Assembly: GCF_040958095.1 (NCBI RefSeq)
Contig: NC_091172.1
Coordinates: 29,679,070 to 29,743,069 of the forward strand
DNA: 64,000 nucleotides
Direction: 5' to 3'
Source: Procambarus clarkii
Lineage: Eukaryota; Arthropoda; Malacostraca; Decapoda; Cambaridae
Shown: positions 11,986-64,000 of the stretch, piece after piece
Position numbering within the stretch: position 1 is the stretch's first letter
Layout of the letters: every line of letters starts with the position of its first letter
Position numbers and translations under genes: made by a program
Notes under the pieces: generated by a model
Database searches by the model: none
Told to the model about the DNA's origin: nothing
What the model saw: the letters and a program-made list of their open reading frames with translations, nothing else

Positions 11986-12273
11986 TCTTTCCCTTATGGA
12001 ATATGTAATTGTATAATGTGTGTGTGTGGCCGCCACAAACAGCAGACCAGTGGTGAGAAATACTAATAAAAATAATAGTTACCCCCTTACGCTGATACAG
12101 GGCAGTGGCTTGAGAAGCTTTTAAAAACCTCCGAAGCTTTTATGCGAGTACGTGAAAATTATTGACAGCCGGACATTTCTGGTAATTTTTCCGAGATAAA
12201 TGAATAATGGTGCTTTTTACTGTAAGACAACAAAATTGCCAAAAAGTTGGTTTCAGAAATATTTAACTGTAAA

Positions 12274-12476
12274 AGGCGGGCAGTGCCAAAAATCGTCGTG
12301 GGGGTCTGAATGTGACCCTGACACGCTGTTCTCTTTTGAATTGTGGCGACCCCGACCAGCCCTGAGTGTGGTATGGTCACAACAGCGGCTCTGGAGGCAC
12401 TTGATCTTCACCCAGGGCGTCCTGGTAACTGACTCCTGGCCGTCTTGGCTGGCAAGATGGTCCCTGCGTCCGCCAT
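12274..12476 (+). other. 203-bp near-invariant sequence, copy 1
   Basis: This block aligns without gaps to the reverse complement of 48024-48226. Only two bases differ (GTAACT versus GTAAGT, and CTGGCC versus CTGCCC), giving 201/203. Upstream DNA (about 12035-12273) is homologous to 48227-48470 but strongly diverged: shared islands are GTGGCTTGAGAA, TTTATGCGA, GAATAATGGTGC and AAATATTTAA. Downstream homology ends abruptly at GCGTCCGCCAT. Both strands are open: the plus strand reads QCQKSSWGSECDPDTLFSFE, and the minus strand reads IKCLQSRCCDHTTLRAGRGR and ends DDFWHCPP. It could be a coding exon, with CTG/GTAAGT as a good donor in the other copy, an RNA gene, or a recently converted repeat. 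I do not recognise the product. Confidence 0.55.
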
Positions 12477-12596
12477 GGCAACCATGCCCATTAATCTTAT
12501 TTACAAATGGGGGAAATAGAGGGGAAATGTCCATCATGAAGCTAGCTCGAGCGAGATCCACTAATGGGTTGATAGATCATTAACTCTGCTCGTACA

Positions 12597-12655
12597 ATGA
12601 GTGGGACTCATTATGTGTGGGACTCATTATGAGTGCGGCTCATTATGAGTGGGAC
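12597..12655. repeat. 17-bp tandem repeat, about 3-4 copies
   Basis: GAGTGGGACTCATTATG and variants in tandem. Confidence 0.8.
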
Positions 12656-12727
12656 TGTCATTACTGTCGTATTGACGACGAGTTCAATAACAATATAAAA
12701 TGCGCTGTCTAATACTATTTTTATCGT

Positions 12728-20126: not shown

Positions 20127-20377
20127 GTTATCTTGAGGTTATCTTGAGATGATTTCGGGGCTTTAGTGTCCACGCGGCCCGGTCCTCGACCAGGCCTCCA
20201 CCCCCAGGAAGCAGCCCGTGACAGCTGACTAACACCCAGGTACCTATTTTACTGCTAGGTAACAGGGGCATAGGGTGAAAGAAACTCTGCCCATTGTTTC
20301 TCGCCGGTGGCTGGGATTGAACCCAGGACCACAGGATCACAAGTCCAGCGTGCTGTCCGCTCGGCCGACCGGCTCCC
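20127..20377 (-). mobile_element. modular SINE, head A, core, tail 1
   Basis: Minus strand from 20377: GGGAGCCGGTCGGCCGAGCG (A box region), GGTTCAATCCCAG (B box), core with AGAGTTTCTTTCACCC and TAGGTACCTGGGTGTTAGTC, then GGAGGCCTGGTCGAGGACCG and GAAATCATCTCAAGATAACC. The head and core match 18261, but the tail is the LINE-Y type instead of the LINE-X type. Confidence 0.88.
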
Positions 20378-20379
20378 TT

Positions 20380-20593
20380 CTCTGGTGTCTCTCCTATCTG
20401 AACCCGAGGACCAGGTCACATCCTCGGTGTTTCCACGTGGCCATTCTCTCTAAAGATAATTGGATAATTATCATGCCTATCTTCTGTAATAATTCTATAT
20501 CTTCCCTCGTTTTAGTCCTCTCCCTGTCTTGTTAATTATCTCTATCTCTCCTTATATCTGGTTTTATCACTCTACCTATATGTTAATCCAGTG

Positions 20594-44043: not shown

Positions 44044-44290
44044 GTTATCTTATCTTGAGATGATTTCGGGGCTTTAGTGTCCCCGCGGTCCGGTCCTCGA
44101 CCAGGCCTCCACCCCCCAGGAAGCAGCCCGTGACAGCTGACTAACACCCAGATACCTATTTTACTGCTAGGTAACAGGGGCATAGGGTGAAAGAAACCCT
44201 GCCCATTGTTTCTCGCCTGCGCCTGGGATCGAACCCGGGACCACAGGATCACAAGTCCAGTGTGCTGTCCGCCGGGTCGACCAGGTCCCT
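44044..44290 (-). mobile_element. modular SINE, head A, core, tail 1
   Basis: Minus strand from 44290: GGGACCTGGTCGACCCGGCG, GGTTCGATCCCAGG (B box), a core with AGGGTTTCTTTCACCC and TAGGTATCTGGGTGTTAGTC, then GGAGGCCTGGTCGAGGACCG and ATCATCTCAAGATAAGATAA. It is closest to the copy at 20127. Confidence 0.87.
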
Positions 44291-44680
44291 CTGTCTGTGC
44301 TGCTCTGTCTATGACTTTGTATCTTTAGTATATTTTTGTCTGTTTTTTTGTCTTTCTATTTTATTGTCGATCTCCGTCTCTGTATTTATCTCTCTGCATG
44401 TCATTTCTGTTTCACACTGTCTGTTTCTATGTCTTTCTCTGTCTCTTTGAATATCTAAGTGGTAAGTCAGTGTTGAATACATCAGTGGGATGTATTCCCA
44501 CTAGATAACTAGGTAGTTATCTAGTGTTGTATAGTTGTATACGTCAACAGGCAACTATCAAGTGTTGTATGAGACAATTGGCAGCAATTCACTATTATAT
44601 ACACCACCAGACAGCTATCAAGTGTTGTATACATCAGCAGGTGAGTATCCAAAGTTCTATACATCTCCGGGAAGTAATTG
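44291..44680. repeat. TCTGT-rich stretch and degenerate tandem repeat
   Basis: 44300-44450 is rich in CTGTCTGT and TTTCTGT. 44515-44680 has about four diverged copies of a 36-40-bp unit with CAACTATCAAGTGTTGTAT. Confidence 0.6.
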
Positions 44681-47319: not shown

Positions 47320-48023
47320 CGGTGGTCTTGACAGGCTGATAGACAATGCCAGATAAGTGCAATTATCTACGAGAAGTGACGTGAATATTGTGGAATTAAT
47401 GGGATACGACGTAAAGTGTTGGCAAGTGAGGTGGAGCGAGGGACCGTGTACCACTATGACCAGGTAACTAATTTAACGACGCCTGATACCAGGAAAAAGA
47501 ACAAAAAGATCACTAGTGCCAATACGATAATTACCGAATGAAATTGATGATAAGTTGGTAGTAGGAGGAGTTGAAGTTACAAGAAATGGTGATAGATAAT
47601 GTAAGAGGTGTGAGGCGTGAGGCGTGCAGCAAGAGGCGTGAGGCAAGAAGCGTGAGGTACGGCATGACCCCACAAGTCTAGCTACAGAGGCCGTCCATCA
47701 ACACACAGCAGGAGCTGCGCCTCACAGATCCCAACCTGCCGCCTCGTCACCCCAACTTGTCAAGGTGGTGGTGCAGGAAATCAAGAGATATCACGACAGG
47801 AACCACCCACTAGCTGAACCTCTCGCAGTTTTTCTCCTGGCGGGGAGTGCAAGCCATATTTAGTCACTCATACCTTTTGGGGGCGTTACTGTAGGAACAC
47901 CTAAGAGATAAAAGATAAGATGGTTGGGAAGACGAAGGCAGGAGAGGCCAGTGATATTGAGGGAGAAATGCCATCTCAGGATGTGAAGCGTCAAGAAGAA
48001 ATAAACTGAGGGAAATGGAAGAT
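47320..48023. other. no firm gene; possible exon-like frame near 47690
   Basis: The plus frame from about 47686 to 47811 is open (RPSINTQQELRLTDPNLPPR) after a CTACAG acceptor-like site, but a second frame is equally open and no homology is recognised. 47600-47660 is a GAGGCGTGAGGC repeat. Confidence 0.3.
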
Positions 48024-48226
48024 ATGGCGGACGCAGGGACCATCTTGCCAGCCAAGACGGGCAGGAGTCACTTACCAGGACGCCCTGGGTGAAGATCAAG
48101 TGCCTCCAGAGCCGCTGTTGTGACCATACCACACTCAGGGCTGGTCGGGGTCGCCACAATTCAAAAGAGAACAGCGTGTCAGGGTCACATTCAGACCCCC
48201 ACGACGATTTTTGGCACTGCCCGCCT
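48024..48226 (-). other. 203-bp near-invariant sequence, copy 2
   Basis: The reverse complement matches 12274-12476 at 201 of 203 positions with no gaps. In the copy-1 orientation this copy has GTGTAG just before CAGGCGGGC and CTG/GTAAGTGACT at the internal position. These would serve as acceptor and consensus donor for an exon of about 150 bp. In the opposite orientation the block starts ATGGCGGACGCAGGG. The left boundary (48024) coincides with the end of homology. The right flank to about 48470 is homologous to copy 1 but strongly diverged. The function is unknown. Confidence 0.55.
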
Positions 48227-48589
48227 GCTACACACTTAAATATTTTCAAAACAAACTTTAATAAACAATTTATTTTTTCTAATAATAATATGCACCATTA
48301 TTCACTAATCTCGAGAAAATTAGTAGAAATTTTCTACTGTCGATAATTTACCCATAATCGCATAAAGCCAAAGCGATTCCTCCACTGCTTCAAAGGTTTC
48401 TCAAGCCACAGTCTCTTTTTTCAGATTTAGGGGTAACAATTTTTTTTTTAAGTATTTCTCACCGCTATGCCTCACTCACTGGCGACCACCCACACGTTAG
48501 ACAATTACATATTTTATAAGGGAAAGTGACAGAGAAAGATTTAGGCAAAGACAGGGAAAGAGAGACCGAAAAAGAGACAGAGACAGTTG

Positions 48590-53080: not shown

Positions 53081-53451
53081 CAACCCGTTCTCGCAAATTT
53101 AATAAGTCAATATTGACTTATTAACTACGTGCATAGGTGATATACTAAACATAATAGATACCCTTAAAAAGATTCATAGAAAACACCGACCTTACCTAAC
53201 CTTGTTAGTATCTTAAGATAAGCATCTTATTGCTTCGTAATTACAATTATTACTTAACCTATACCTATTATAGGTTAGGTAATAATTGTAATTACGAAGC
53301 AATAAGATGCTTATCTTAACATACTAAGTAGGTTAGGTAAGGTCGGTGTTTTCTATGAAGCTTTTCAAGGGAAACTATTATGTTAAGTATGTCACCTATG
53401 CACATATTTAATAAGTCAATATTGACTTATTAAATTTACGAGAACGGGTTG
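53081..53451. mobile_element. 370-bp foldback element
   Basis: Outer ends CAACCCGTTCTCG and CGAGAACGGGTTG are complementary, and the arms stay matched inward to about 53262/53270 (TTACCTAACC, AAGATAAGCATCTTATTGCT, CGTAATTACAATTATTACTT). Each outer end also has its own palindrome, AATAAGTCAATATTGACTT. The arms differ by a few substitutions. It has no coding capacity. It is probably an inverted dimer of a short transposon end. Confidence 0.85.
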
Positions 53452-53670: not shown

Positions 53671-54829
53671 TAATTACATTTCTATTAATAATGGCTTGTC
53701 GCCCAAGATTACTTATTCTGAAGCACTGTTTCACTTCCCCGATGTCTGTATTTAATGTAATAAATAACACATTAATGTTATGACAGATAACATCCGGATA
53801 ACGAAGATAACTTTGGCCGATAATTGTAACGTATAGATTGAGCACAAGGTCAGGCAAGGCTCGGACAATACAGTAACACTTGAAACAAGCTACAGGTAAA
53901 TTACAAGTAATGAGTACTTTCCCATCCCTGAATTACTGCGTTGATAACTTCTATCCCCTCCACCACCCTTATCCCACGTGACTATAAGATTACTACACAT
54001 AAAACTTAAAAAAAAAAATTAAACGAGCAGAAAATCCCAGATTTTACCTCTACAACTCCATCTGAAAATTTATCCCTCCTGGGGGGACAAATTTTCCCTT
54101 CCATTTCAGGAAAAATTCCGGCACCGTGCAATGTTCCCTGCCCCGCACGGCTCAAGTGTTCCCTGCCGATACACAATTTCCTTAAAACATAAATAGCTCC
54201 TTCCGCTTCACAAACCTTTTCAGATCCAGCACAGACCTCCTCTGCGTTAAAGCCTCCTCGACTGAAAATGCCTGGTCTGACGCAAACAGAATCCAGCTTC
54301 ATCTTTGGCGGCGCTGAATATGGCACTCCAAGACGCTGGAAATCGCGTCAAATGAAAACTGATTTTCTAAATAGGTTCTTAGAGTTCCCAGCGGGGAAGC
54401 GAGGCGTCGGGATTTTGAAGTATGGGGGATGACTTTAAGTCACTCTCAGCTGGTGTTTGGTGGTCTGGTGCCAGCACTCAGCTGGTGTTGCCATGTCCTT
54501 CACAGCCACCACCATGGCCACAATGGTGGCCACCTCGCCATGGCCACAACAACTGCCTGGCATGGTGATGGCAGGATAGGCTTCATCGGCTGGCTTTATT
54601 AGTTAATGAGTTCAACAAACTCATTAGTGTGGGAGGAGGAGGAGCGAGACTCACAGTGACTGGAGACGTGGAGGGAGCGACCGGGAGACCTGGGTGGTGG
54701 TGGTGGCAGCTGGAACACACACTCCCTTACAACACCTTTCCTGCCCAACAGTCTCCATTCCTTTTCCCCTTATCTACCTTTATTTCCCCCCTCTCTCTCC
54801 CTCCCTCAGCTTGGCTGCGAGAGGGAGAG

Positions 54830-54830
<1 letters not shown>
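53671..54830. other. no recognised gene
   Basis: Unassigned. 54006-54326 is open on the minus strand but motif-free. 54690-54830 is pyrimidine-rich on the right. Confidence 0.45.

Positions 54831-54831
<1 letters not shown>

Positions 54832-54890
<59 letters not shown>
54832..54890. repeat. (CA)n tract at the 5' junction of LINE-X
   Basis: A pure CA tract ending exactly where the LINE sequence begins (GAGAGAGGGCCAGAGACC). Confidence 0.97.
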
Positions 54891-54893
<3 letters not shown>

Positions 54894-56816
54894 AGAGGGC
54901 CAGAGACCAAAAGACACAAAAATGGAATCAATACAGGAAGAGGCCAAACCCCCAAACATACCAGCGATACAAAGATGCGAGAAACAACTACACAGCAGTG
55001 AGGAAAGAGGCAGAAAGAAATTTTGAAAAAGGGATTGCGGACAAATGTAAAACAGAACCAGGTCTATTCTACAAATTCATAAACAACAAATTGCAGGTAA
55101 AGGATAATATCCAGAGGTTGAAAATGGGAAACAGATTCACGGAAAATGAAAAGGAAATGTGTGAAACATTAAACGAAAAATTCCAAAGTGTGTTTGTACA
55201 AAATGAAATCTTCAGGGAACCAGACACAATAAGAATTCCAGGGAACAACATAGAGCACATAGAGGTGTCTAGAGATGAAGTGGAAAATATGCTAAAGGAG
55301 CTAAGTAAGAACAAAGCAGTTGGTCCAGATGGAGTTTCACCATGGGTTCTGAGAGAATGTGCACCTGAGCTCAGCATTCCACTTCGGCTGATTTTTCAGG
55401 CATCCCTGCTTACAGGAGTTGTAGCTGATGTGTGGAAAAAGGCTAACATAGTTCCAATCTACAAAAGTGGCAGCAGGGAAGACCCCCTTAATTATAGCCC
55501 TGTATCATTGACAAGTGTAATAGTCAAAATATTGGAAAAAATAATTAAAACTAAATGGGTAGAACACCTGGAGAGAAATAATATAATACCAGACAGACAG
55601 TATGGTTTTCGATCAGGAAGATCCTGTGTATCGAATTTACTCAGTTTCTATGATCGAGCCACAGAGATATTACAGGAAAGAGATGGTTGGGTTGACTGCA
55701 TCTATCTGGACCTAAAAAAGGCTTTTGACAGAGTTCCACATAAGAGGTTGTTCTGGAAACTGGAAAATATTGGAGGGGTGACAGGTAAGCTTCTAACATG
55801 GATGAAAAATTTTCTGACTGATAGAAATATGAGGGCAGTAATCAGAGGCAATGTATCGGACTGGAGAAATGTCACAAGTGGAGTACCACAGGGTTCAGTT
55901 CTTGCACCGGTGATGTTCATTGTCTATATAAATGATCTACCAGTTGGTATACAGAATTATATGAACATGTTTGCTGATGATGCTAAGATAATAGGATGGA
56001 TAAAAACTTAGATGACTGTCATGCCCTTCAAGAAGACCTGGACAAAAGAAGTATATGGAGCACCACTTGGCAAATGGAATTTATTAATGTGAATAAATGC
56101 CATGTTATGGAATGTGGAATAGGAGAACATAGACCCCACGCAATCTATAAATTATATGAGAAATCTTTAAAGAATTCTGACAAAGAAAGAGATCTAGGGG
56201 TAGTTCTTGATTGAAAACTATCACCTGAGGACCACATAAAGAAAGTTGTGCGAGGAGCCAATGCCACGCTTTCTAACTTCAAAATTGCTTTTAAATACAT
56301 GGATGGCGAAATACTAAAGAAATTGTTCATGACTTCTGTTAGGCCAAAGCTAGAATATGCAGCGGTTGTGTGGTGCCCATATCTTAAGAAGCACATCAAC
56401 AAACTGGAAAAGGTGCAAAGACATGCTACTAAGTGGCTCCCAGAACTGAAGGGCAAGAGCTACGAGGAGAGGTTAGAGGCATTAAATATGCCAAAACTAG
56501 AAGACAAAAGAAAAAGAGGTGATATGATCACTACGTACAAAATAGTAACAGGAATTGATAAAATCGATAGGGAAGATTTCCTGAGACCTGGAACTTTAAA
56601 AACAAGAAGTCATAGATATAAACTAGCTAAACACAGATGCCGAAGAAATATAAGAAAATTCACTTTCGCGAACAGAGTGGTAGACGGTTGGAACAAGTTA
56701 GGTGAGAAGGTGGTGGAGGCCAAGACTGTCAGTAGTTTCAAAGCGTTATATGACAAAGAGTGCTGGGAAGAGGGACACCACGAGCGTAGCTCTCATCCTG
56801 TAACTACACTTAGGTA

Positions 56817-62464: not shown

Positions 62465-64000
62465 ATGAGACTCGTGAAATGGACTGAAGACTACCTCACA
62501 GGGAGGAAAGCCAAGGTCTGCTTCAACGGAGCAGCCTCGAGAACAATGAGTATGGAACTCGGGGCCCCCCTAAAGGAGGGGTCTTGAGCCCCTCACACTA
62601 TTCAAAATACTTATGAACACCATTGCAAATATTGACTTTCCGGAAGGAACACAACAAGTGGGATATGCAGATGATGTACTAATACAAGCCCCAACCTTGA
62701 GGAGAAATAAAAGTCCTTTGAGCTCCTTAGAAGGAAATGTGTTGAACACGGTTTCACTCTCTCCCACAAACAAAACAAAAGCACATTGTCATCACAAGCG
62801 AAGAGAAAATGAAGAACTACAAATTAATGGTGTAACACTTGAATGGGTTGACCACTATCGGTACCTTGGCGTCACTGTCGGCTCTAACAAGGGAAAGAAA
62901 GAGGAGGTCAACCAACTCATACAAACATGCAAAAGTCGACTCAGGGCACTGAAAGCTATGACCTGGAATGGACATGGAGCCTCTATTGCCGTGCTTAAAA
63001 TGATGTACACAGCCTATGTGCGCTCCGTCATAGACTATGCCGCACCAGTTTTATGCACCTATCCCAAGCGATATGAATAAGCTTGAAAGCAGACAAAATG
63101 ACAATCATAACAATCATTCTTGGAGTCCCAAGAACTGCTGAAACATGTAATCTACGGGAGGAGTTGTGTCTCACCAGTGTTAGTAGCAGAATCAGGGAAC
63201 TGAATGCTAAGCTTGCAATTAAGATAGCCAGAGATCCCCATTACAATGATCTTGCCAAGAAAAAACTGAGTTCTGTGGTACTCACAGGAGGAAACAGGGA
63301 AAACAAACAATGGCAACACCGGTCAGTCTGCTACCTGGAAGAACTTCACCTGCTTGAACAAGCCCGTGAGCTCCTGCCTGTAGAGAGGTTACAACCCCTC
63401 CCCCCCCCCCCCCCGGGAGGACGACCCATGTAGGATTATTATCAACGAGATGACAATGAAAAAATCTAACATGATACCACAAGAAAAGAGCCACAAGTAT
63501 CTTGAGGAAATTTATAAAGAAGCTGCAAATGAATGAGATCAAATCTACACTGATGAGGTCAGCTAATCCTGCCAGTGACAGGGCTGGTGCAGCATACACT
63601 GTAATTAGGAATAATGTCTTTCAAAACGCAAGTGAAGAAAACACATATTGACAACTATGCATCTTCAACGCAAGTAGAACTAATTACCATTATTATAGCA
63701 TTAAAATTTCTTGAAAGAAACACTAACAGTGCAGTGATCTGCAGTGATTCAAAAGCAGCACTACAAAGCCTTAATAAACATCGGGCACAAAACCTTGCCA
63801 TAGTTGCTGAAATCAAGAGAGCTGTGAGAGTACTAACCAATCAGGGAAGAGTCGTCAAATTTCTGTGGATCCCCTCCCATGTTGGATTCTGGAAATGAAC
63901 GAGCAGATGTGCAGGCTGCTGAAGGAGACCATATTGTATACTGCATACCCACGACTCCTCTACATATTAGAGGTATTGTCAGGCAATATCCCCGTGACAA
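62465..64000 (+). pseudogene. LINE-Z reverse transcriptase and RNase H, broken, runs off the edge
   Basis: Frame 1 (62465-62587): WTEDYLTGRKAKVCFNGAAS. Frame 2 (to 63080): FKILMNTIANIDFPEGTQQV, GYADDVLIQAP (catalytic YADD), YRYLGVTVGSNKGKKEEVNQ and RSVIDYAAPVLCTYPKRY. Then VPRTAETCNLREELCLTSVS from 63083. RNase H: IYTD near 63543, STQVELITIIIALKFL (catalytic E), VICSDSKAALQSLNKH (catalytic D) and LWIPSHVGFW (catalytic H), then after a shift ERADVQAAEG. At least four shifts or stops occur. An RT followed by RNase H fits the I/Jockey superfamily. The C-terminal cysteine motif would lie beyond 64000; the 4940-5266 fragment probably shows it. The 5' truncation falls in the ACC array. Confidence 0.88.

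Follow-up and report, generated by a model that had tools for sequence, protein, structure and literature searches.

The closest described process is ectopic (interlocus) gene conversion between dispersed repeats, which the block reported here resembles in three respects: an in-register step in identity lies within common repeat sequence, donor and recipient are on one chromosome, and no fixed differences separate them. Unlike such conversion, the tract extends 115 bp past the common repeat and ends without homology, making it one-sided. Templated insertions and microhomology-mediated break-induced replication, as set out in parts of PMC8421209, likewise involve a short stretch copied from elsewhere and a non-homologous junction, but here the left side is anchored in long repeat homology and the event is known from sequence alone. 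A third comparison is with modular SINEs that have a common central domain, for example Nin-SINE as presented in parts of PMC11121367. The repeat family at our locus is similarly short and high-copy with a shared core, and has at least two clearly different 5' parts together with a common 3' part with a GACAGACAGACA-like end. ARAGORN found no tRNA at the heads of the 16 loci scanned, and the family differs from such SINEs in that, outside the core-picked sample, the core shows no greater conservation than the remainder of the element.

The window, by which we mean the whole 64,000-nucleotide stretch of Procambarus clarkii DNA that was analysed, contains at 12274-12476 a block of 203 bp that matches the reverse complement of 48024-48226 at 201/203 positions, in inverted orientation and with no indel. 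The window copies mismatch at two bases of the block, 156 and 166 when its first base is numbered 1. The near-identity and sharp step claimed in the preliminary description are thus borne out. BLAST merges the block and the upstream homology into a single match of 507 columns at 82.6%; the upstream part by itself aligns at 214/284 (75%), plus gaps, and identity is far higher inside the tract than in this homologous flank. To the right of the block no homology was detectable between the two loci, the flank score of 11 being reached by 45/500 shuffles. As read from the letters, GGCGG at block bases 2-6 (12275-12279) and CCGCC at 197-201 (12470-12474) appear to form a short inverted repeat at the edges. 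The features of the two loci, called A/W1 and B/W2 after their copies (W1 and W2 being the alleles in the window), are as follows.

11987-12273, + strand: locus A/W1, the 5' portion of an old insertion of a high-copy interspersed repeat (family consensus matched at 231/286, 81%; 75% to 48227-48526)
12275-12361, + strand: block bases 2-88, derived from the interior of that repeat (family consensus matched at 85/87; matches genome-wide)
12362-12476, + strand: block bases 89-203, outside the repeat (four places only, all on scaffold C23)
12477-12720, + strand: right flank of locus A/W1, unrelated to the right flank of the other locus
48227-48526, - strand: locus B/W2, the 5' portion of another, separate old insertion of this family (255/298, 86%, to the consensus)
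48139-48225, - strand: block bases 2-88 at locus B/W2 (repeat piece)
48024-48138, - strand: block bases 89-203 at locus B/W2, with a derived GTAAGT
47846-48020, - strand: right flank of B/W2; L077, on another scaffold, is an old relative, and the homology starts 3 bases past the block end

The block is a composite of a repeat piece (bases 2-88) and locus-specific sequence (bases 89-203). Searched with the whole block, the 4.03-Gb assembly yielded 1,625 first-look candidates, and 40 of them were scored; such candidate counts are not counts of confirmed copies. Among the 40 scored, four places are full-length and lie on scaffold C23, from 29.59 to 29.73 Mb; the other 36 are confined to approximately bases 1-88, with 90-97% identity. 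When bases 89-203 were searched alone in the same assembly, there were four candidates and four matches, at the same C23 places and within 135 kb. The family that contains the first 87 bp of the block numbers at least hundreds to thousands of copies, and beyond base 88 the other family copies run on into the common 3' part. The preliminary description had named thousands of copies with the same boundaries as the mark of an ordinary young transposon fragment. The whole block was found at four places, probably two loci, and an ordinary young transposon with the block's boundaries was rejected, bases 89-203 being present at those four places only.

Haplotypic (false) duplication is an established concept in genome assembly. 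As expected of it, two contig ends here share sequence and come together precisely at a gap: C23:29569655-29670035 and 29670536-29769922 are the same ~100-kb stretch, abutting the two sides of a 500-N gap, and the listed matching pieces are 92-99.7% identical, shifted tandem-array matches aside. Judged from the position of the gap rather than from reads, the overlap most likely represents two unmerged haplotypes lying side by side. Each copy of the stretch carries both blocks, and the four blocks are probably two loci on two haplotypes: locus A at C23 29592987, with window allele W1, and locus B at 29626463, with window allele W2. Gene and repeat counts are doubled across the overlap, which covers the whole window. 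This arrangement bears on the possibility that a misassembly duplicated the block between the loci. A probable haplotype duplication, joined at a gap, is indeed present in the scaffold and speaks for such an error. Against it, both ~100-kb copies have both blocks, and three of the four blocks show private differences; we regard this explanation as extremely unlikely. In the tandem-masked ~99-kb haplotype copy that contains the window there are 176 dispersed pairs; among the 40 most identical, only two reach 98.6% or more, and these are 60 and 72 bp long, which makes 203 bp at 99% exceptional within that copy.

The haplotype overlap provides a free test of polymorphism against divergence that can tell copying from constraint, and should the overlap prove to be a real duplication, the comparison would still be one of recent against older copies. 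The four block copies show six differences, all singletons (two each in A, B and W2, none in W1), and fixed differences between A/W1 and B/W2 number 0/203. Haplotype differences in the block, 2/203 and 4/203, are no fewer than in the 300-bp or 1000-bp flanks (Fisher, four comparisons, p = 0.53, 0.64, 0.76 and 1.0). The ratio of polymorphic to fixed differences is 6/0 in the block versus 11/71 in the upstream part (274 gap-free columns; p = 2.3e-5), with 5/0 in the 115 bp and 1/0 in the 87-bp core, the latter count being too small to judge. Because long purifying selection would lower both classes of difference whereas recent copying lowers only fixed differences, the data point to the block having become recent at both loci through copying, and not to long purifying selection. 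Of the causes listed in the preliminary description, local gene conversion, or an equivalent templated copy, is therefore the best supported, and strong selection is opposed by the normal divergence between haplotypes.

The opposing view would be that the block is a functional unit (a regulatory element, an exon or an RNA) that strong purifying selection has preserved at each locus, the remainder of an old inverted duplication having decayed around it. A repeat piece that departs little from the family consensus at either locus (84-85/87), a GC content of 59% and one open frame on each strand are in its favor. Against it, the haplotypes differ in the block as fast as in the flanks, and at 15% of the neutral rate the probability of at least six differences is 3e-4 (0.0095 at 30%); the left homology is that of the repeat, at family-background identity, and no match was obtained in Pfam (four frames), PDB (one frame) or, at the gathering score, Rfam (the window). 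We consider this view quite improbable for the block as a whole; for the 87-bp core alone, the differences are too few to exclude strong selection.

No candidate product emerged from database searches. Pfam, with four frames across both window copies of the block, and PDB, with one frame, each gave 0 matches, and Rfam, run on the window, gave none at the gathering score, the two sub-threshold matches around the block having E above 7. The statement that neither a protein family nor an RNA could be recognised is consequently upheld in these three collections. Both strands are open, as had been reported, with one frame each, and this is weak evidence because 239/3000 block shuffles are equally open. 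A protein exon was rejected on the Pfam and PDB results; a known RNA was rejected on the Rfam result. The splice donor proposed earlier reads GTAAGT in one window copy and GTAACT in the other, as described, although the view of it as a shared donor lost from one copy does not hold: A, W1 and B, which make up three of the four copies, all read GTAACT, and GTAAGT occurs in W2 only, so that it is a derived base in W2 rather than the remnant of a common splice donor.

The left flanks look like separate old insertions of one repeat, their likeness being family resemblance, because the 75% identity between W1 and W2 is no better than that of W2 to unrelated family members. The left part of W2 is 72-77% identical to the tail-picked family loci that align over at least 200 bp (7/20) and 78-83% identical to six loci picked for left-part similarity. 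The left part searched alone gave 1,219 first-look candidates in the assembly, and A/W1 is absent from the 40 of these that were scored as matches to the W2 left part. The flank described earlier as homologous and full of changes does align with gaps, but as family resemblance only. An ancient inverted duplication kept by selection was rejected, with the left homology at family-background identity and block variation between haplotypes normal.

Is the core of the repeat itself conserved? The family consensus was built from 28 of 50 fetched loci, ten of which were picked for core similarity; the other 22 were omitted for having another head, a short match or none. Built from 19 members not picked on the core, the consensus still matches the block core at 84/87. 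Identity to the consensus in tail-picked members is 0.81 for the upstream part (n = 10/12), 0.83 for the core (n = 12) and 0.91 for the tail, and in upstream-picked members it is 0.87 (n = 6), 0.85 (n = 4/6) and 0.87, respectively. These two samples, neither of them picked by core similarity, show no special conservation of the core across the family. A family-wide conserved core was thus rejected as the cause of the identity step (core 0.83/0.85 versus left part 0.81/0.87 in the tail-picked/upstream-picked members), and the conserved SINE core first read from the core-picked alignment was dropped, that sample having itself been chosen on the core. The earlier suggestion of a repeat with a younger core was right that a repeat is involved, in bases 2-88 only, and wrong in that the core is no more conserved family-wide.

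At the two loci, by comparison, the block core is close to the consensus (84-85/87), and the left parts are at 0.81 (A) and 0.85 (B). Differences from the consensus number 3/87 in the core versus 53/286 in the left part at locus A (p = 2e-4), and 2/87 versus 44/298 at locus B (p = 6e-4). Core-picked copies elsewhere reach 0.966 to the consensus (L005 and L007, among ~1,600 candidates). The near-consensus core at both loci exceeds what copying alone explains, since a donor of uniform age should not give the excess; it may reflect a particular donor, constraint in the past, or a previous conversion with a younger repeat copy as its source. Two further explanations are relevant here. The block may have come to both loci from a third, younger source that was lost or not assembled, whether a small mobile unit or another copy of the repeat to which the 115 bp had become attached beforehand. 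The repeat piece does look younger than the left parts of both loci, and the GGCGG and CCGCC at the block ends, read from sequence alone, may also speak for such a source; yet the 115 bp occur nowhere else in the assembly, and the left parts continue in register into the core at both loci, unlike an insertion. We hold a third source to be unlikely. Very improbable, in our estimate, is an exapted element, composed of the repeat piece and the 115 bp, that sits at two inverted sites, was once constrained and is now kept alike by repeated conversion between them; the past constraint would account for the near-consensus core.

We favor, with a probability of about 0.72, one-sided ectopic gene conversion or templated repair between inverted repeat copies ~35 kb apart as the ordinary cause of the block. 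We describe it as one-sided or templated repair, and not as classical two-sided conversion, because there is no homology on the right. The starting point would be two old, separately inserted copies of one repeat in opposite orientation, ~35 kb apart, followed by a recent event in which one locus received at least part of the 203 bp from the other. In the recipient, the repeat would have been broken and its free end would have paired with the donor's repeat piece through the homology on the left; synthesis would then have passed through the repeat core into the donor's 115 bp of locus-specific sequence, and the freshly made end would have been joined to the recipient's right side without homology. 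The four assembly copies would then be the donor and recipient loci on two haplotypes. The composite block, the separate left repeat copies, the absence of homology on the right and the absence of fixed differences are observed; how the repair proceeded, that it happened once and not as repeated conversion, and the direction of transfer are inferred.

For direction, the right flank of B has one old relative elsewhere (L077, on C25; 70%), and the homology begins 3 bases after the block end. This single 3-bp coincidence weakly suggests a breakpoint at the block edge in B, with A as the donor, and slightly favors A to B because it is the right flank of B that has the breakpoint there. In an empty-site comparison, the other half of L077 matched the window flanks no better than shuffles did.

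Ordinary DNA repair, and not the presence of a new gene or RNA, probably accounts for the block. Where repeats abound in a genome, near-identity of this kind needs no selection: unrelated repeat copies provide the local anchor, and repair then copies unique sequence together with the repeat.

The common 3' part of the family, searched alone, gave 1,588 first-look candidates in the assembly. A second, different head is common to 9/24 core-picked loci (L031, L032, L034, L035, L037 and L041-L044), which constitute a second family with the core and 3' part in common; for hundreds of bases its copies seem almost the same, and by this token the family appears to be the younger. A tRNA-like stretch was seen in L008, by eye only. 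A literature search with the letters of the repeat found no paper, which does not make the family undescribed, and one on decapod SINEs returned nothing on topic among the titles listed; phage, plasmid and viral collections gave no match.

The sole tRNA call in the window, Thr (tgt) at 20302-20373 (- strand), lies inside a dispersed repeat (20139-20384 is 92.7% like 44050-44297), and ARAGORN makes the same call in L049:1727-1798; the window call is probably a SINE head and not a tRNA gene. Putative retrotransposon remains are present at 54569-56008 (+ strand), where a 480-aa frame matches RVT_1 with E 1.2e-25, and at 62574-63895 (+ strand), with weaker RVT_1 and RNase H matches (E 0.017 and 1.8e-4). 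Positions 53081-53402 pair with 78844-78523, past the window end, over 322 bp at 96% identity inverted and 92% direct, a palindrome-like arrangement.
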